Positions 15,562-60,173 of a stretch of 64,000 nt of DNA are shown in pieces. The stretch is from a virus. The stretch is from IMG/VR virus record IMGVR_UViG_3300046008_000242, positions 121,363 to 185,362 of that record. One strand, given 5' to 3'. How positions within the stretch are numbered: the first letter of the stretch is position 1; the number at the start of each line of letters is the position of its first letter. The position numbers and the translations under genes are program-made. The notes under the pieces are model-generated. The model was not told where the DNA came from and ran no database searches. It worked only from the letters and a program-made list of their open reading frames with translations.

Positions 15562-15805
15562 GATTGGATGAAATTTATAGATATTTTATCCCAGAATATA
15601 CATAATTGTTTTGTTTATTTGTCCAATAATCCATCTTAGTGGAACGTTCCATATACAATCCAATCAACTCTACATCATGTAAAATAAACGTTGCATATAA
15701 TCCAAATATGAGCGATTGACAATATCGATGTAATATCTTAATCATCGAAAGAGTCTTGTGATAATTTTAGACATCGAGTCTGTATTATACAGTTAAAGAT
15801 ACTCC

Positions 15806-15834
15806 TTGACTTTTCGACAAAACATCGTTATAGT
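15806..15834 (+). promoter_or_regulatory. Sigma70-like early promoter, array 1 module 1
   Basis: TTGACT at 15806-15811, a 17-nt spacer, TATAGT at 15829-15834, then AGACTATGTCGA. It drives rightward toward the 42-codon ORF at 15963. Confidence 0.75.
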
Positions 15835-15962
15835 AGACTATGTCGACACTTTGAGTTAGGTTCATTAATTGGTTTTAATATTACTACAACATAACTTAGA
15901 CTCTTATTTTAATCATATATTATCATAAATAATTGTATTATAACAATTAGAGGTAATACTCA

Positions 15963-16091
15963 ATGGAATTTAAGAATCAATACCATGGATTATTCGATAA
16001 CAGAATAGTGTTAGGAACTATCGGAGAAGGATATCTCTACGATTCATCAGATGTAACAGATTATCGATATACCATCACTTGGTTAAGATGA
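15963..16091 (+). CDS. Small ORF inside array 1 (42 aa)
   Basis: AGAGGT lies 9 bases before an ATG at 15963. The ORF encodes MEFKNQYHGLFDNRIVLGTI... and ends at TGA 16089-16091, followed within 10 bases by a hairpin terminator. It sits 130 bases downstream of the module 1 promoter, so promoter, ribosome site, ORF and terminator are in a working order. No homology recognised. It may be a surviving cassette gene or a fragment. Confidence 0.45.
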   Translation: MEFKNQYHGLFDNRIVLGTIGEGYLYDSSDVTDYRYTITWLR

Positions 16092-16097
16092 CATTTC

Positions 16098-16132
16098 AAT
16101 CCTGTAATATGGAAACGTATTATGGGATTTTT
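16098..16132 (+). terminator. Terminator, array 1 module 1
   Basis: AATCCTGTAATA and TATTATGGGATT pair with two G-U pairs around TGGAAACG, followed by TTTTAAT. Confidence 0.6.
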
Positions 16133-16373
16133 AATGCGTAAAGGTTTCTTATAACATCCATTATTTGCTCGTTAATGGACTCTAGTGGAATCTTTAATAT
16201 ACGGAGCAATCAACTCTATGTCATACAATTTAAACGAGCAGTAGCGGACAAATATGGTTGTTCCTTGTATATCCAATGTATCGAAAGAGTCTTAAGATAT
16301 TTTACTCGATGTGTAATGTATCGAAATGGTCATCTTAATCATCGAGTGTGAATTATACAACGTCTTAAAACTC

Positions 16374-16402
16374 TTGCCTTTTCGATAAAACATCGCTATG
16401 AT
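16374..16402 (+). promoter_or_regulatory. Sigma70-like early promoter, array 1 module 2
   Basis: TTGCCT at 16374-16379, a 17-nt spacer, TATGAT at 16397-16402, followed by the conserved AGACTATGTCGATCC. Confidence 0.75.
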
Positions 16403-16536
16403 AGACTATGTCGATCCTTTGAGTTATATCCGTTGTCTGCATTTAATTGTTTTTAATATTACTAAGACGTTTATTATTCATTAACTAATCATATTAAGAC
16501 GCTTATTATACATGAAAATTCCATATAAAATCTTTC

Positions 16537-16593
16537 GACTCCATTTAGATCCCGTTGAGAACCAAAAGTTCCTTCGGGATTTTTATTGGAGTC
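16537..16593 (+). terminator. Terminator, array 1 module 2
   Basis: ATCCCG...CGGGAT stem with TTTTTATT tail, nested inside an outer GACTCC...GGAGTC pairing. A near-identical copy lies inverted at 54962-55018. Confidence 0.8.
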
Positions 16594-16847
16594 AATTTAC
16601 AGTATTCTGACATAGAACATTCCTTAATTCATCCATATAATGGACGTTAATCCACCTTAATGAAACATTCGGTGGATTACTCAATCAACTCTATGTCATA
16701 CATTTTTAACGAGCAGTAGTGAGCAATTATAGATGTCTACTGTAAATATAACATATCGAACTAACCTTCATGTATTATTTCGATATGTTAATCATCGAAA
16801 GAGTAACCTTAGACATCGAGTGTGTAATATACAACGTCTTAAAGTCC

Positions 16848-16876
16848 TTTCGAAATCCTAAAAAGAGTAGTATGAT
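16848..16876 (+). promoter_or_regulatory. Promoter with TTTCGA box, array 1 module 3
   Basis: TTTCGA at 16848-16853, a 17-nt spacer, TATGAT at 16871-16876, then AGACTATGTCGATCC. The -35 position lacks a TTGACA-like hexamer and carries the TTTCGA box instead. Confidence 0.65.
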
Positions 16877-16990
16877 AGACTATGTCGATCCTTTGAGTTA
16901 TGTTCTTTAGGTGGCATTAATATTACTATATTATATTCTAGTGTAACTTAGACATTCATTTACAACAATATTCCCATATAAAATCCTTCG

Positions 16991-17028
16991 ATCCAGAAAG
17001 AGTCGAGAAACTCAATCTGGATTTTTAT
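16991..17028 (+). terminator. Terminator, array 1 module 3
   Basis: ATCCAGA...TCTGGAT stem with inner GAGTC/GAAACTC pairing and a TTTTTATTG tail. A close copy lies inverted at 54493-54532. Confidence 0.8.
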
Positions 17029-17268
17029 TGTGTATAATTTAACAATATCCAACCAAGAACATTCCTTAATTCATCTGTCATTTGGACGTTAATGGACTCT
17101 AGTGAAACGTTCTGTATATCATCCAATCAACTCTACATCATGTAAAATAAACGTTCCATATTCAACAATTATAGATGTCTACTGTTAATTCAACATATCG
17201 AAACCGTCTTAGAGATATCTTAATCATCGAACCCATATCTTATTGTATATTACAGGAAAAGAAAACTC

Positions 17269-17297
17269 TTGACTTTCTCGAGAAACTCCACTATGAT
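17269..17297 (+). promoter_or_regulatory. Sigma70-like early promoter, array 1 module 4
   Basis: TTGACT at 17269-17274, a 17-nt spacer, TATGAT at 17292-17297, then AGACTATGTCGATCC. It is about 95 bases upstream of the gene at 17394 and is the obvious promoter for the four-gene operon to its right. Confidence 0.8.
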
Positions 17298-17393
17298 AGA
17301 CTATGTCGATCCTTTGAGTTATATCCGTTACTGTCATTTAGTTTATTTTAATATACTAAGTGTCTTCCTCGACTTTATTATACATCATTTAAC

Positions 17394-17624
17394 ATGAACC
17401 AAGACACTATAACAAGGAAGATAGAAAACTGTATTAGACGTAAAGTGTTGTTCGAACTATCTTACAATAAAGAGAACACTTATGTCACTATCGATACAGA
17501 TATCCATAAGAATGATTTATCGATATTCGACATAAAAGAATTCGATATCTGGATGAAACAAAAGAACATAATATATGAACCAACAATTTCTGAAACAGAG
17601 TACCTAACCATTATAATAAAATGA
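17394..17624 (+). CDS. Hypothetical early protein (76 aa)
   Basis: The first gene after the promoter array. MNQDTITRKIENCIRRKVLF is helical and basic, followed by an acidic alpha/beta part. It ends with an ATGA overlap on the next gene. The ribosome site is weak. No family recognised; position directly behind strong early promoters suggests a host-takeover role (inference). Confidence 0.55.
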   Translation: MNQDTITRKIENCIRRKVLFELSYNKENTYVTIDTDIHKNDLSIFDIKEFDIWMKQKNIIYEPTISETEYLTIIIK

Positions 17625-17812
17625 AAGAAGAACAAGACTTAACATTATTGAAAAACGCAAAATCAATTTTAGAAGATACAATTCGATGTATCGACATGGA
17701 TTCAAATCTAGTTAGTTTTGAATTAAAAACATCTAAACTTAAAATTGTTAGAGCATTAGATTATCTGGATGAACTAGAAGAAAGAATGAGATTAGGAGAA
17801 ACAAATGTTTGA
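17621..17812 (+). CDS. Hypothetical early helical protein (63 aa)
   Basis: An almost entirely alpha-helical, acidic small protein (LLKNAKSILEDTIRCIDMD, LDYLDELEERMRLGE), possibly a two-helix coiled coil. Coupled to both neighbours by overlaps (4 bases upstream, 8 downstream). Function unknown. Confidence 0.55.
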   Translation: MKEEQDLTLLKNAKSILEDTIRCIDMDSNLVSFELKTSKLKIVRALDYLDELEERMRLGETNV

Positions 17813-18161
17813 TTTAACAGGAATAAATGATATGAATTCATGTTTTAATGAGAAAACTGGTCAATTTATAGATCCAAATTTCGATAGACATGATGATAGA
17901 CCATGGGATTATGAATTTACAGCAGATAGAGCTAGATTTATCTCTAATCGATATAATGATAAGATTAAACAATTTGTTGGATATTGGTTGTTTCAAATCA
18001 AGAAGAAAGCTGGCGAGGGTAAGCGAAGTTGTTCGTTCAAATACTTTTATAAAGGTGGATATGCTTACCAGAAAGAATCTCTTAACAGATTATTGGAATT
18101 GGGATATCTGGTTCGTTCCGTCAAAGAACCAGATGGTATTAGAATAATTGTAACATGGTGA
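17805..18161 (+). CDS. Hypothetical early protein (118 aa)
   Basis: Starts MFDLTGINDMNSCFNEKTG after TTAGGAGAAACAA, a strong ribosome site. The central part (FVGYWLFQIKKKAGEGKRSCSFKYFYKGGY) is basic with aromatic residues, then an amphipathic helix and a DGIRIIVTW end, reminiscent of a small winged-helix DNA-binding fold. That reading is tentative. Confidence 0.55.
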   Translation: MFDLTGINDMNSCFNEKTGQFIDPNFDRHDDRPWDYEFTADRARFISNRYNDKIKQFVGYWLFQIKKKAGEGKRSCSFKYFYKGGYAYQKESLNRLLELGYLVRSVKEPDGIRIIVTW

Positions 18162-18166
18162 AATAT

Positions 18167-18730
18167 ATGAAAGGTTTAAATGTTGTTATCAATTCTAGAT
18201 TACTACAAGAAAGAACATCTGATGAAACTTACGGGGAATGGTATTCCGAATATAAAAATACATTGGCGAAAATTAAATTTACAGAATCTGCTCCTGATGT
18301 TGTTACGTCATTAGATGTTTCTGTAGGAGATAAACTCTATATTGTATGGATAGAATGGTCGTCTGGGGATTCATTTGGGACTTCCATTAGAGGAAATGTT
18401 GAGACATTGGGTGTTTTCAAGGACGAACAATATGCCTTGCGATTTTCGGAATTTGTTAAACAAACTGATGAAATAGAAGAATCGTTAAGATTATCATCTT
18501 CAACAATAAGTGTTCAATATCTTAGAGATAAATTTAAAAAGGAATTCCCTAAATTTGATAATGTTGAAATCAATTTAGTTGATAACAATAAACTATATTC
18601 TTGGGATAACGGATGGAGATTGACGTATAAAACAGAATGTGGTCAATCTATTGAATTTAGATATTTTCCATGGGTTGGTTATTTTGAAACATTAGAAGAT
18701 GTTAATGTCGATTATAAACACATTACATAA
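18167..18730 (+). CDS. Hypothetical early protein (187 aa)
   Basis: The ATG at 18167 has GGTGA 5 bases upstream; an in-frame ATG at 18155 has no ribosome site. VGDKLYIVWIEWSSGDSFGTSIRGNVETLGVF followed by YALRFSEFVKQ resembles small phage proteins with a beta-sheet domain that are of unknown function. It is the last gene of the early operon and is followed by a terminator facing the converging fibre operon. Confidence 0.6.
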   Translation: MKGLNVVINSRLLQERTSDETYGEWYSEYKNTLAKIKFTESAPDVVTSLDVSVGDKLYIVWIEWSSGDSFGTSIRGNVETLGVFKDEQYALRFSEFVKQTDEIEESLRLSSSTISVQYLRDKFKKEFPKFDNVEINLVDNNKLYSWDNGWRLTYKTECGQSIEFRYFPWVGYFETLEDVNVDYKHIT

Positions 18731-50490: not shown

Positions 50491-51135
50491 TCATAGATCT
50501 TCAGATAGGAATTCTTCAATTTCTGTTTCATCAATATCCAATTCAGGAATATCAATTTCTTCAATTTTGGTTTCATCTTCCAAGAAATCCATTAACGAAT
50601 TTCGATGTTCCTTAATGGGTTTTTCTTTTATCTTCTTTTCGTAGTATTCAGAATAATCAGTTTGTTGATAACTTTTAATAATTTCAACATATTCTGTTAC
50701 AATGTCTTGATTATCGGTTTCATTTTCCAGGATAGAAGATAAATCAACATTTTTAATTAATTGTTGTCTAATGTATGTCTGTTTGCGTTCTTTGAGGATA
50801 CGCTGGACAAATGTATTATGTACAGAAGCAGTAATATACGAAAATGGTTGAGTAGAACGTTCTGGATCAAAAGAATCAAAATACTTGATGCCATTTAGGA
50901 TGGCATCTTGAATCATCTCATCTTTAAATGAATAACTAAAGAATCCAGGTCTGTTGGCATATTTGTGAGCAATTTTAATGATACATTCTGCTTGGTATCT
51001 AGTGATTGGTGGTTTTGGTTTACCTTCCAATTCGGCTTCCTTGATTAAACGTTTTCGTTCAACAATAGAATTATAAAGTTTTTCTTTGTTAACATATTCG
51101 CGTTTCTCTACTTCTTGTTTTGTTTCTTCCGTCAA
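50491..51135 (-). CDS. 55: Late-transcription sigma factor gp55
   Basis: 214 aa with YQAECIIKIAHKYANRPGFFSYSFKDEMIQDAILNGIKYFDSFDPERSTQPFSYITASVHNTFVQRILKE (residues ~50-120), the sigma region 2 of T4 gp55. An acidic C-terminal tail (DIPELDIDETEIEEFLSEDL) is where T4 gp55 meets the sliding clamp. It directs polymerase to TATAAATA boxes, two of which are seen in this window. Confidence 0.92.
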   Translation of the reverse strand: MTEETKQEVEKREYVNKEKLYNSIVERKRLIKEAELEGKPKPPITRYQAECIIKIAHKYANRPGFFSYSFKDEMIQDAILNGIKYFDSFDPERSTQPFSYITASVHNTFVQRILKERKQTYIRQQLIKNVDLSSILENETDNQDIVTEYVEIIKSYQQTDYSEYYEKKIKEKPIKEHRNSLMDFLEDETKIEEIDIPELDIDETEIEEFLSEDL

Positions 51136-51214
51136 GATGGTTCTCCAAGGTTATTATTGAATAATCTATTATACTTGATTATTCATTTAATACAAGATTA
51201 TTAAGACATCTATA

Positions 51215-51330
51215 TACATCCATTATTTGTCGTTTAACCAATGTTCATTCTATATAACATAGAGTTGATTGCTCTGTATACATAACGTTCCATTATAGTG
51301 GATTATTGGACAAATATGGATGTATTATAA
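51215..51330 (-). repeat. Isolated copy of cassette leader element (a)
   Basis: The minus strand reads CCAATAATCCAC...GGAACG...AGCAATCAACTCTATGT with the 65-base consensus of the array (a) element, followed by an 8-codon ORF MLYRMNIG (51260-51234) and TAA. It is between gp55 and the 39-aa gene. It stands without the rest of a cassette and is the only copy outside the two arrays apart from the one attached to the 56100 gene. Confidence 0.65.
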
Positions 51331-53314: not shown

Positions 53315-54061
53315 CTATAACAATTTGATGATTTTGTTTAATTTCTTTTCAATCTTCTGTAGTTTAACATCCATCTCATTACGTTCCTGTTTTAATCGTT
53401 CATTTTCTTGTTTCAATTTTTGAATTTCTTTATCATGGGAACCTTCGATCTTACCTAGATAACCAGATGTTCTTGATTTGACTACATACAAATCGTTATC
53501 TACGATTGAGATAACATTGTCGAAATATGCGTTAAATAATGAACCTTGATATGGAGCATCGCGTTTATTTGTGACGACGCATAACAAATTATTTGTTCTA
53601 ACCAATTCTATCAATTCCATGCAGATTTTCTTTTTATCTTCGTATCCATCTGAAGACTTTGGAGATAGAGATTTGACGATACGTTCGATGTTATCAATCA
53701 ATAATGTTGTACATTTTAGATCGATGTTATAATCTCTAACCATTTTCTTTAACAGATAATCTATCCCATCAACTGTAATTTCACGCAAATCGATTATAAT
53801 AACTTTGTTACCATCTTTTTCCAGGATCTCCGTAATTGGTTGATAAATCGAAGAGGATATATTACGAAATCCTTTATATTGTTCGACTGGACTAGAACCA
53901 GCAAGTGTAATATGAATGATGTGTTGATTTGGTATAGATGAACCAATTTCACATAATGTTTTTGTCTTACCAGAGCCTTCAACTCCGTATAATATTGTTA
54001 ATTCTCTAGTTTCTAACATTTTATTCTTGTCATTGATTCGTTCTACAATACTTTTTGTCAT
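53315..54061 (-). CDS. RecA-fold/P-loop ATPase with coiled-coil tail
   Basis: 248 aa. Walker A LYGVEGSGKTKTL (residues ~25-37), Walker B CTTLLIDNIERI (~118-129) and a basic C-terminal coiled coil (KQENERLKQERNEMDVKLQKIEKKL). The size and spacing suggest a RecA/RadB-type ATPase rather than a full UvsX. The lack of a DNA-binding loop motif leaves its role open; it sits beside ligase and recombination genes. Its promoter is at 54101-54128. Confidence 0.65.
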   Translation of the reverse strand: MTKSIVERINDKNKMLETRELTILYGVEGSGKTKTLCEIGSSIPNQHIIHITLAGSSPVEQYKGFRNISSSIYQPITEILEKDGNKVIIIDLREITVDGIDYLLKKMVRDYNIDLKCTTLLIDNIERIVKSLSPKSSDGYEDKKKICMELIELVRTNNLLCVVTNKRDAPYQGSLFNAYFDNVISIVDNDLYVVKSRTSGYLGKIEGSHDKEIQKLKQENERLKQERNEMDVKLQKIEKKLNKIIKLL

Positions 54062-54128: not shown

Positions 54129-54242
54129 GATAAAGTTTATACATTGAAATGATAGTCTATAAAATGTATAATAAACGCCTAAGTGTGATTGAAGTATATT
54201 AAACGTAAATAATAGACCTAACTCAAAACGTCGACATAGTCT

Positions 54243-54271
54243 AGTATAATGGAGTTTTATCGATTTCGAAA
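54243..54271 (-). promoter_or_regulatory. TTTCGA-box promoter, array 2
   Basis: Minus strand: TTTCGA (54271-54266), 17-nt spacer, TATACT (54248-54243), then AGACTATGTCGACG. Confidence 0.65.
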
Positions 54272-54368
54272 GGAGTTTAAGACTCTGTTAATATCATACT
54301 CGATACATTATACCATCTTAAGACTATTTCGATGTGTTAAATTTACAAGAGATATCCATATTTGCTCA

Positions 54369-54395
54369 CTACTGCTCGTTAAAAATGTATGACAT
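54369..54395 (-). other. 8-codon leader ORF MSYIFNEQ in array 2
   Basis: ATG TCA TAC ... CAG TAG on the minus strand, identical to the ORF at 16693-16719 in array 1 and one of five such 8-codon ORFs at the (a) element. Confidence 0.4.
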
Positions 54396-54492
54396 AGAGT
54401 TGATTGGACCGTATATTAAAGATTCCACTAGGATGGAATAACGTCCAAATAACAGATGGTTTAATGTTTATTCTTAGTAGATAATCTGTATC

Positions 54493-54532
54493 CAATAAAA
54501 ATCCAGATTGAGTTTCTTGACTCTTTCTGGAT
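54493..54532 (-). terminator. Terminator, array 2 (copy of 16991-17028)
   Basis: Minus strand: ATCCAGAAAGAGTC...GACTC-like inner pairing, TCTGGAT outer stem, TTTTTATTGG tail. Confidence 0.8.
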
Positions 54533-54679
54533 CGAAGGATTTTATATGGGAATATTCGTGTAAATGATAGTCTAAGTTATGTTTAAATGTTGTATAATAA
54601 AGTCGAGGAATACACTAGAACATAATAAAGTAATATTAATGTCACCTAAAGAACATAACTCAAAGGATCGACATAGTCT

Positions 54680-54708
54680 ATCATACTACTCTTTCTACCA
54701 TTTCGAAA
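54680..54708 (-). promoter_or_regulatory. TTTCGA-box promoter, array 2
   Basis: Minus strand: TTTCGA (54708-54703), 17-nt spacer, TATGAT (54685-54680), then AGACTATGTCGATCC. Confidence 0.65.
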
Positions 54709-54961
54709 GGACTCCGAGACGATGTATATTACAGTTTCGACGTTTATTTGTATCCTTTCGATGATTAAGATATCGAAAGAAACGTCTTACGATGTTTCGA
54801 TATGTTGAATAAACAAGGAACATCTATATTTGGAGTTTAAACAACGATAAAAATGTATGACATAGAGTTGATTGCTCCGTATATTAAAGATTCCATTAAG
54901 ATGGATTATTGGGCAAATAACAGATGTTTGAGGAATGTTCTACATCAGAATAATGTAAATT

Positions 54962-55018
54962 GACTCCAATAAAAATCCCGAAGGAACTTTTGGTTCTCAA
55001 CGGGATCTAAATGGAGTC
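54962..55018 (-). terminator. Terminator, array 2 (copy of 16537-16593)
   Basis: ATCCCG/CGGGAT stem inside GACTCC/GGAGTC, with TTTTTATTGG on the minus strand. Confidence 0.8.
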
Positions 55019-55153
55019 GAAAGATTTTATATGGAATATTCATGTATAATAAACGTCTTGATATGGTTTAGTTAATGAATAATAAGAGTCTAAGTTATGA
55101 TATAGTAATATTAAATGGCATTTAGAACATAACTCAAAGGATCGACATAGTCT

Positions 55154-55182
55154 ATCATAGTGGAGTTTTATCGAAAAGGCAA
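55154..55182 (-). promoter_or_regulatory. Sigma70-like early promoter, array 2
   Basis: Minus strand: TTGCCT (55182-55177), 17-nt spacer, TATGAT (55159-55154), then AGACTATGTCGATCC. It is almost identical to the 16374-16402 promoter. Confidence 0.75.
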
Positions 55183-55463
55183 GAGTTTTATAGACGTTGT
55201 ATAATTCATGCTCGATGATTAAGATATTCCTTTCGATGTCTGAGATTACTCTTTCGATGATTAACGTATCGAAAGAGTACATGAAGACTGTTTCGATATG
55301 TTATATTTACAGTAGACATCTATATTTGGATTATATGCAACGTTTATTCTACATGATGTAGAGTTGATTGGATGATATACAGAACGTTCCATTAGGATGG
55401 ATTAACGCCCAAATAATGGATGTTATAACAGTTACCATTGAATGTATATTGTTAAATTATACT

Positions 55464-55500
55464 CAATAAAAATCCCACTCAGAAACTAATCTGGTGGGAT
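55464..55500 (-). terminator. Terminator, array 2
   Basis: ATCCCAC...GTGGGAT stem with TTTTTATTGAG tail on the minus strand. Confidence 0.75.
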
Positions 55501-55666
55501 GCTTATGTCGAAATGAGGTTCGAAGGTTTTTATATGGGAATAATGTTGTAAATGATAATCTTAATATGATTAGTTAATGAATAATAAACGTCTAAGTTAC
55601 ACTAGAAAACAATATAGTAATATTAATGCCACCTAAAGAACATAACTCAAAGGATCGACATAGTCT

Positions 55667-55695
55667 ATCATAGTGGATATTCTACCATTTCGAAA
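55667..55695 (-). promoter_or_regulatory. TTTCGA-box promoter, array 2
   Basis: Minus strand: TTTCGA (55695-55690), 17-nt spacer, TATGAT (55672-55667), then AGACTATGTCGATCC. It lies just downstream of the 55762 gene. Confidence 0.65.
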
Positions 55696-55761
55696 GGAGT
55701 ATCGGATGTTGATGTTTACACATTCGATGTTATAGATTACCGATAAGACTCTTTCGATGTA

Positions 55762-56100
55762 TCAAATTATTGTTTCGATCGAAGTAATCTTAACATTATT
55801 TGATTTACGTCTATCCAACATATATTCATTATGGTTTAATCTAACAAAATGTTCCATGCCAGATTCAATGTTAAATTTACAGATAATCTCATACCTTCCG
55901 TCAACCAATTTAGAATTGTTAAATTTTCCATCCTTTACTCGTTTTTGGATGAAGTCAATGTTTGGGCTGAACCATTTAAATCTATTGGTGAAATCCAATC
56001 TATTGTTTGAATTATCATATTCCAATTTACACATAGCTCTATACAATATCATAGTACACCATTTATTTGTTGAATATGGAACGTTTATTTTACATGACAT
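55762..56100 (-). CDS. Hypothetical protein (112 aa), intact cassette gene
   Basis: The ATG at 56100 is chosen because it is the same ATG as in the array (a) leader (AATCAACTCTATGTCATG). The product MSCKINVPYSTNKWCTMILYR... is Asn/Lys-rich with RFKWFSPNIDFIQKRVKDGKF and DGRYEIICKFNIESGMEHF; no family recognised. Its 5' 25-30 bases are repeated in array 1 (17125-17165) without the rest of the gene, so the arrays carry beheaded copies. A longer start at a GTG (56133) is possible. Confidence 0.6.
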   Translation of the reverse strand: MSCKINVPYSTNKWCTMILYRAMCKLEYDNSNNRLDFTNRFKWFSPNIDFIQKRVKDGKFNNSKLVDGRYEIICKFNIESGMEHFVRLNHNEYMLDRRKSNNVKITSIETII

Positions 56101-56186
56101 AGAGTTGATTGCTCCATAATCATAACGTTCCACTAGAGTCCATTAACGTCCAATTAACAGATGATTTAAGAAACCTTTACGCAATA

Positions 56187-56222
56187 AAAATCCTCAATCA
56201 ACTTGTCAGTCAATTGAGGATC
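56187..56222 (-). terminator. Terminator after the 56914 gene
   Basis: ATCCTCAATTGACTG... pairs with ...GATTGAGGAT; TTTTTATTG follows on the minus strand. It separates the modification cluster side from the cassette gene. Confidence 0.75.
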
Positions 56223-56230
56223 TTAAATTG

Positions 56231-58763: not shown

Positions 58764-60173
58764 TTAAAAGAATTCTTCCAAACCTGTCGACTCAAAATAC
58801 TCAATCAACCATGGGTGATGTTTATCCAACCATTCTCTACCCTTATCGTGTTTCAATAAGAATTCGTACCATTCTCTGGCGTTCTCATAATTACCATCTT
58901 TTGTTTTAGAATCACCCCACATACTCGGGGTTGTTCCGTTCCAAAGTGGTCGCCACAATGGATGAGATTCATCTTTACGTCTAACATCTAGGAATAATTT
59001 TCTGTAATCTTCGTATTCCTTTGAACCGCCATTAAACATGTCATCTCTAAAATAGAAGATTACACTAATACGTTCTGCGTCTGGTGAATGTTTAATGAAA
59101 TCAGTGTTTCCATGGATGATTTCATGATTATTAGCAAAAATGGTATCGCCTGGTCTAAGATTAACAGCTACTCTATATTCAGGAAATACTAGATATGCTC
59201 CATCATAATTGTGATTCTTAGAAATCACTGAGATATTACTTAATCCATCAGACAAGTCGCCAAAATCTCGATGTCCATAGGTTTTCCATGTGTTATTTAC
59301 AGTGATTGTGGTGAATACGGTATCAGGAATAACGTATGCTGGATCTATCTTATCACAAGCAGCTTTCTGATTACTCCATCTCCAAGGCATATTCTCTTTG
59401 AAACCTCGATTCAATGCCTGAGCAAATGGATAACACAATTTGTATTTTTCAAAATTATGTTCAGTGTATGCTGTATGACGTAAGAATGGAATTCTAGGAT
59501 ATCTACCATAACCTGGTCCAGCAATACCACTATAAGCTGGAACTGCATACACTGTACCAGAAATCCAATTCTTCATAACATCCAATGCCTTGGTTTGAGC
59601 TTCTTCTTTTGGTAAAGATTCCAATTCTTCAACTAATTTATCGAAGGAGAAATCTTCTGGAATTTTATTGGTCAACCAGACGCTTGCCCTCATTTCTGGT
59701 GGATACTCTTTTGTTTTCAATTCTTGTAATGTATCAAATCCATCTAATGTTGTAATTGGATTGATGAAATACTCTAAAATATCATGTTGTCTTTGCGTGA
59801 ATCTTTGGCGGCGTTCTTGTAAGTCATTATCAATATTATCTTCAACAGAACCAGCAGCAGTTCCTCTATTATTTGAAATAGTGGCGGCATCTTTCAATCC
59901 AGCATATCCTGCTTCTTGTTCCTCTAATGTAAAGAAACCCTTCCGATATTTGAATGCAATTCGACGTTCATCCATACCCATATGACATTCTTCGCATTTT
60001 GATGTACAATCAGCTTGCGTCGATAAATCACAAACTGGTGGAATATACACATCACAATCTTCATCAATGTCACCACCTTCTCCGATTAGAATATCATAAT
60101 GTGAACTATTGAGAGATTTACCCAATAGATGTTCACAATCGTGTTTTTCTTTTGCTACAATAATTCTTGCCAT
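58764..60173 (-). CDS. TET/JBP-like 2-oxoglutarate/Fe(II) dioxygenase 2
   Basis: 469 aa. The double-stranded beta-helix motif is WKTYGHRDFGD (His301, Asp303), then NYDGAYLVFPEYRVAVNLRPGD, EIIHGNT (His354) and Arg368 in AERISVIFYFR. The GAYLVFPEY...LRPGD part is the TET/JBP pattern. An N-terminal Cys cluster (CDL, CTSKCEECHMG, residues 48-63) may bind zinc, and ATISNNRGTAAG at ~98-108 is shared with the paralogue. Relatives hydroxylate methyl groups of DNA bases (5mC or thymine). The substrate is not known here. It is a diverged paralogue of the gene at 61934. Confidence 0.8.
   Translation of the reverse strand: MARIIVAKEKHDCEHLLGKSLNSSHYDILIGEGGDIDEDCDVYIPPVCDLSTQADCTSKCEECHMGMDERRIAFKYRKGFFTLEEQEAGYAGLKDAATISNNRGTAAGSVEDNIDNDLQERRQRFTQRQHDILEYFINPITTLDGFDTLQELKTKEYPPEMRASVWLTNKIPEDFSFDKLVEELESLPKEEAQTKALDVMKNWISGTVYAVPAYSGIAGPGYGRYPRIPFLRHTAYTEHNFEKYKLCYPFAQALNRGFKENMPWRWSNQKAACDKIDPAYVIPDTVFTTITVNNTWKTYGHRDFGDLSDGLSNISVISKNHNYDGAYLVFPEYRVAVNLRPGDTIFANNHEIIHGNTDFIKHSPDAERISVIFYFRDDMFNGGSKEYEDYRKLFLDVRRKDESHPLWRPLWNGTTPSMWGDSKTKDGNYENAREWYEFLLKHDKGREWLDKHHPWLIEYFESTGLEEFF

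Follow-up and report, generated by a model that had tools for sequence, protein, structure and literature searches.

Why should a large phage genome carry tandem sets of promoters and terminators with hardly a gene between them? The question is raised by two arrays in the window, i.e. the whole 64,000-nt stretch of DNA that was analysed (G000:121363-185362), which is part of a 249,362-bp phage record (G000). The phage is called T4-like because T4-type proteins are encoded in the window (gp46, ligase, baseplate hub, tail sheath, terminase and baseplate wedge); even the nearest phage gp46, from cyanophages, shares just ~43% identity. A sequence-only reading had described eight ~400-bp modules in two inverted arrays and proposed that they were PeSL cassettes which had lost their genes and now acted as promoter banks, recombination targets or short-RNA producers. 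All eight modules were found in their places (Table 1), the order of elements and the AGACTATGTCGACA / CG variants were as described, and the modules do repeat, with an average size of ~460 bp instead of ~400 bp.

Table 1. Features of the two arrays in the window; arrays are named after the genome blocks that they separate.
Feature	Position in window	Strand	Remarks
Array E/F, four promoter modules	15590..17393	+	between blocks E (left) and F (right)
Array E/F cores	15835, 16403, 16877, 17298	+	
E/F module 1 promoter, TTGACT-17-TATAGT + core AGACTATGTCGA	15806..15846	+	
42-aa ORF (MEFKNQYHGLFDN...) in E/F module 1	15963..16091	+	SD-like AGAGG; orthologue in G002 array a5
E/F module 1 terminator-like stem-loop + T-run	16098..16136	+	
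E/F module 2 promoter, TTGCCT-17-TATGAT + core	16374..16414	+	
E/F module 2 terminator	16548..16588	+	identical to F/G copy at 54967-55008
E/F module 3 promoter, TTTCGA-17-TATGAT + core	16848..16888	+	
E/F module 3 terminator	16990..17031	+	
E/F module 4 promoter, TTGACT-17-TATGAT + core	17269..17309	+	
Free-standing 5' half-module	51200..51330	-	upstream of 50491-51135; window 51268 = G000 172630
Array F/G, four promoter modules	54140..55761	-	between blocks F (left) and G (right)
Array F/G cores	54231-54242, 54668-54679, 55142-55153, 55655-55666	-	
F/G module 4 promoter, TTTCGA-17-TATACT + core	54231..54271	-	
F/G module 3 terminator	54493..54535	-	
F/G module 3 promoter, TTTCGA-17-TATGAT + core	54668..54708	-	
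F/G module 2 terminator	54967..55008	-	identical to 16548-16588
F/G module 2 promoter, TTGCCT-17-TATGAT + core	55142..55182	-	
F/G module 1 terminator	55464..55505	-	
F/G module 1 promoter, TTTCGA-17-TATGAT + core	55655..55695	-	
96-aa gene	55762..56052	-	between partial (5' half) module and F/G module 1
Terminator + promoterless 5' half-module (CATCTGTTAATTGGACGTTAATGG...AATCAACTCTATGTCAT...)	56053..56224	-	

The two arrays turned out to belong to a larger set. The core AGACTATGTCGA is present in 25 dispersed copies in G000, gathered in seven arrays at about 10, 40, 77, 97, 137, 176 and 210 kb, and those in the window are the fifth and sixth, at 137 and 176 kb. A relative with a genome of 234,735 bp (G002) has 24 cores, likewise in seven arrays, and altogether four IMG/VR contigs bear the core in arrays. 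Each array is a tandem set of 2-5 modules, mostly gene-less, with a mean core spacing of 463 bp in G000 and 471 bp in G002 (568, 474 and 421 bp in array E/F and 437, 474 and 513 bp in array F/G). With up to two mismatches allowed the window holds 16 core matches as against 5.0 expected, a number reached by none of 100 shuffles. Searches of array DNA against phage records and of bacterial genomes with the exact core pattern gave zero matches, comparable arrays were not found in the distant T4-like contigs G011 and G015 (~57-65% capsid identity), and in other viral contigs there were single matches to module fragments, mostly due to chance. An orphan single module lies inside block C between two minus-strand genes (G000:43784-43795; L010:10785-10796) and is followed by a half-module.

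The plan of the module is constant: the terminator of the previous module is followed by a conserved upstream region of ~250 bp, a promoter, the core, an unstructured leader of ~150 nt and the next terminator. The upstream consensus (CATTATTTG..CaaTAATcc.., TAaTGGAA.., CAATCAACTCTA and repeated [A/G]TCGA, with 2-5 such sites per region) is common to G000 and G002, as is that of the leader. A hexamer at the -35 position (TTGACT, TTGCCT or TTTCGA), a 17-nt spacer and a -10 box (TATGAT, TATAGT, TATACT or TATGCT) occur in 48 of the 49 modules of both genomes, so that a host-type promoter is predicted in every unit bar one copy with an inverted core. The sequence-only reading had made its case depend on conservation of these boxes in related genomes, and they are retained in G002. 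Its 17-nt spacing is exact in all eight window promoters, but TTGACT stands at -35 in only two of them, with TTGCCT in two and TTTCGA in four. As TTTCGA, found at most -35 positions of the modules, is a poor sigma-70 match, these promoters may depend on an activator or on another holoenzyme. The near-invariant core lies at the predicted start site and contains the dyad GAC-TAT-GTC. In the one exception (G000:10485-10496; L009:10485-10496) the 11-bp centre of the core is inverted between GAT and ATC with the remainder in the original orientation, which fits a quasi-palindrome template switch.

The pattern TTGAC-N17-19-TATNNT followed by AGACTATGTC was found in 98 stretches in IMG/VR compared with one for a reversed control; the 98 include a large coding group (VDYVVVDE) as well as the phages studied here, and the non-coding excess is thus below 98, though still clear. 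The same pattern occurs 10 times in bacterial genomes, all of them Clostridia/Peptococcaceae, and several of these 10 are just upstream of apparent tRNA genes. AGACTATGTC immediately downstream of a -10 box is seen again in many unrelated phage contigs and in Clostridia, in the latter apparently at promoters of tRNA operons (L182, L184, L187, L190, L193 and others; L170-L179). Permuted tmRNA genes (Rfam RF04321) were seen in phage contigs L088, L183 and L216.

Each leader typically ends with a stem-loop and GGATTTTTATTG, placed between successive promoters. Such a terminator lies 127-191 nt past the core in 30 of the 48 scored modules, all 30 of them gene-less, and 142-191 nt past it in the two window arrays. 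The near-identity claimed for the terminators holds, GATCCCGTTGAGAACCAAAAGTTCCTTCGGGATTTTTATTG being identical in both arrays and GATCCAGAAAGAGTC(G/A)AGAAACTCAATCTGGATTTTTATTG one base apart. The last module of every array has no such terminator ahead of the next gene; in the window it is absent between E/F module 4 and the downstream operon (17394-18730) and between F/G module 4 and the gene at 54061. The idea of a plain promoter bank is therefore unlikely unless terminators are bypassed, because the operon can be reached without crossing a terminator only from the last promoter of the array. Transcripts of ~120-190 nt are still predicted, as the notion of short-RNA producers would have it, and the modules might be regarded as a family of regulatory RNAs of that length in which diversity between copies is a functional feature. 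The promoter and terminator kept in the 30 gene-less modules, together with a constant RNA start and a variable body, would agree with this, but the leaders fold no better than shuffled sequence (mean z 0.03), alifold recovered essentially the terminator alone, an Rfam search gave no match and the longest leader ORFs average 22.2 aa against 21.1 aa in shuffles, none being above chance. A regulatory RNA family is thus very unlikely. Among specific candidates a structured small RNA was ruled out by the fold statistics and the lack of an Rfam match, and hidden ORFs in the leaders by lengths no better than those of shuffles.

That the cassettes are gene-less is true of most modules but not of E/F module 1 or of the upper edge of array F/G, whose 96-aa gene has an 80%-identical orthologue in G002, syntenically placed at the left end of block G. 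Units flanking single cassette genes are not the rule, and only a few edge modules carry one. The suggestion that the arrays had lost their genes fared badly. Two genomes at ~67% protein identity retain the gene-less architecture, the core and the spacing, the genes that are present occupy outer array edges at the same syntenic place in both, and comparison of the relatives for gain and loss between modules found array genes keeping to the same block end; a lost-gene origin is not supported by these sequences. Hopping of cassette genes between arrays was also considered and rejected, the 42-aa ORF, the 96-aa gene and an HNH endonuclease gene each being at an unchanged block end. The last of these (PF13392) is inside the A/B array (L009:10810-11481), and in G002 its orthologue occupies the corresponding end of block B; that the enzyme supplies breaks is speculation. 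Promoterless 5' half-modules also stand free at G000 172630, 198469 and 214163 (214040-214222), one of them between two convergent terminators.

Comparison of the modules with each other revealed extensive exchange. In aligned upstream and promoter sequence the closest module was within the same genome in 48 of 48 cases and in a different array in 46 of 48, and exact stretches of 30-92 nt tie each module to several other arrays. The modules are, on this sequence evidence, mosaics homogenised within each genome. Resemblance between modules of one array is slightly lower than between random pairs (-230 to +45; P 0.009 in G000 and 0.049 in G002), a small effect that would agree with the loss of tandem copies when they resemble each other too closely.

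Further evidence on the role of the arrays came from the two genome arrangements that were compared. Reciprocal best hits between G000 and G002 numbered 263 (mean protein identity 67%), giving 255 anchors once filtered, and 244 of these fall in seven collinear blocks bounded by arrays; the program gave eight runs, since a local gene swap near 198.7 kb splits block G/A once. The blocks of G000 run A B C D E F G, those of G002 A -B C -F -D -E G. In both genomes arrays lie at each of the six broken adjacencies and at the one that is conserved (G-A), and by hand calculation the chance that six random gaps of ~244 would all fall among the seven array gaps is ~3e-11. Of the roles proposed in the sequence-only reading, that of PeSL-like recombination targets is the one that the breakpoints support. 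In the outgroup G011 a gap of 83 bp separates gp17 from gp18, the two being neighbours as they are where block ends C and B meet in G000; the B/C order of G000 is thus ancestral and the inversion of B in G002 derived.

Misjoining at repeats during metagenomic assembly would likewise preserve array polarity, and could in principle have produced the block permutation. Exact repeats between arrays reach at most 95 and 92 nt, however, and the end overlaps of the contigs are 126 and 127 nt, from which, as in circular contigs, k=127 is inferred; an assembly at k=127 would not misjoin the arrays, as their repeats are below the overlap length. Moreover, the G002 junctions a1, a2, a6 and a7 recur in contigs G001, G003 and G004, which are 99.97-100% identical to G002 in the array regions compared (~96-99% in part of one G001 stretch), and the gp18-gp17 junction of G000 agrees with the order in G011. 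Judged from these sequences misjoining at the arrays is unlikely, and an artefact as the source of the permutation as a whole is highly improbable.

The arrays are also polarised with respect to the genes beside them. In G000 as in G002 the block ends into which they point are A_r, C_l, D_l, E_l, F_l, F_r and G_r (l, left; r, right), and 14 of 14 junctions join one driven and one non-driven end, a rule with which 3.1% of random arrangements comply. In a breadth-first search four inversions, all between arrays that face opposite ways, turned one order into the other; dropping the orientation rule gave no smaller number. Six of the seven arrays are at the head of an operon, array F/G standing before the AAA-ATPase/ligase/gp46 operon that closes block F on the right, and the array facing C_l is directed toward the terminase gene from its 3' side and drives no operon. 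Genes at driven ends encode mostly small unknown proteins, with acetyltransferase-like and esterase-like proteins, an AAA-type ATPase and DNA ligase, while no array drives the runs of tail sheath, capsid and baseplate genes; this content fits early regions, which is not proof that they are early. Purely transcriptional arrays, with breakpoints coinciding only because operon borders alone tolerate rearrangement, would account for the six at operon heads, and selection would purge breakpoints inside operons. Yet operon borders and gaps between convergent or divergent genes are numerous elsewhere (e.g. 18730/18771 in the window) with no breakpoint at any of them, the gp17/gp18 array is a breakpoint although it lies antisense within a run of late genes, and sequence exchange between arrays is directly visible in the modules. 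It is thus unlikely that the arrays are transcriptional only.

Iteron-like ATCGAA repeats, the [A/G]TCGA sites, dyads such as TCCACTnnAGTGGA, the free-standing half-modules, placed between convergent terminators, and the dispersal over seven sites might instead suggest replication origins or some other DNA-level site, with transcription serving initiation. This is improbable, as GC skew tracks the coding strand and flips with block inversion, not at fixed sites, and the half-element gives a weak fold signal that is not consistent from copy to copy (mean z -1.4/-0.8), for which reason no hairpin is claimed. A replication-linked skew was looked for and was not seen.

Other genes of these phages were noted in passing. 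Window positions 58764-60173 (minus strand) encode a 469-aa phrog_24024 protein with a weak match to queuine tRNA-ribosyltransferase, whose relatives in Cr30 and DLP6 carry the label SNF2 DNA repair; the window protein may belong to deazaguanine DNA modification. In G002 the portal gene (L028:10843-13728) carries an intein (PF14890, E 5e-13), and a smaller insert in the terminase gene (L029:8003-9982) matches inteins weakly; G000 has neither.

The reading preferred here, with a probability of about 0.72, is that these are early-promoter/insulator arrays of the PeSL kind at seven junctions, which would also provide homologous-recombination tracts for the shuffling of whole blocks. The module anatomy and number, conservation in two genomes, mosaicism, coincidence with breakpoints and polarity are observed, and it is from these that we infer early timing, insulation and recombination. 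The last promoter of an array would drive the adjoining operon early in infection, with antisense or short RNA as the only product of the array facing the terminase 3' end, and the inner promoter-terminator units would insulate the operon from the neighbouring block and give short untranslated transcripts. Whole blocks would be inverted when arrays aligned with like polarity undergo homologous recombination, and because exchange would occur inside the array the driven operon would keep an intact promoter whatever block had been joined to it. Transcription is most likely the primary selected role, shuffling being a tolerated and perhaps useful consequence. A more tentative and rather doubtful extension is that the arrays are themselves a selected genome-shuffling system, with polarised promoter-insulator tracts at every junction, block inversion or exchange leaving every operon a working promoter, and dissimilar tandem neighbours preventing array collapse. 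The preferred reading gives a concrete account of how a large T4-like genome could be rearranged without destroying transcription units, by means of arrays pointing into the operons that they serve; it would unite PeSL cassettes with the repeat regions of Campylobacter phages and predicts the junctions and their polarity in further relatives.

PeSL cassettes of T4-type phages were reportedly treated by Arbiol et al. in 2010 (Genome Biol Evol 2:140) and Comeau et al. in 2014 (Genome Biol Evol 6:1611). The arrays resemble them in the early-type promoter and stem-loop terminator, in the many dispersed copies and in the tie to genome shuffling, which is seen here by genome comparison. The units here differ in their length of ~460 bp, their long conserved upstream region and their mostly gene-less tandem arrays of 2-5, and the arrays border blocks of ~20-50 kb in place of single-gene cassettes. 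The PeSL papers of Arbiol et al. and Comeau et al. are cited in PMC4503421. In the haloarchaeal virus HGTV-1 a TATA-like box and inverted repeat precede many ORFs, a motif that its authors compare to PeSL; there it stands before single ORFs, and gene-less arrays are not described (PMC3950731). In the Campylobacter group II phages CP21, CP220 and CPt10 four repeat regions, RR1-RR4, divide a T4-related genome into large modules, of which B and C are inverted between relatives at the repeats, and some repeat regions hold ORFs (PMC4546147). The CP21 units are 72-86 bp long with the core AAACTTAAAGCAA and no reported promoter (PMC4546147), and those inspected show no evident plan of -35/-10 and terminator, unlike the modules here. 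The 85-bp units of the Campylobacter phages have no sequence relationship to these modules; copies of AAACTTAAAGCAA number zero in G000 and G002, and there are seven arrays as against four regions. In both systems, however, repeats separate the rearranged modules of a T4-related genome and blocks are inverted at them. The present case is one of PeSL-type units in arrays that serve as block borders, and so combines both precedents.
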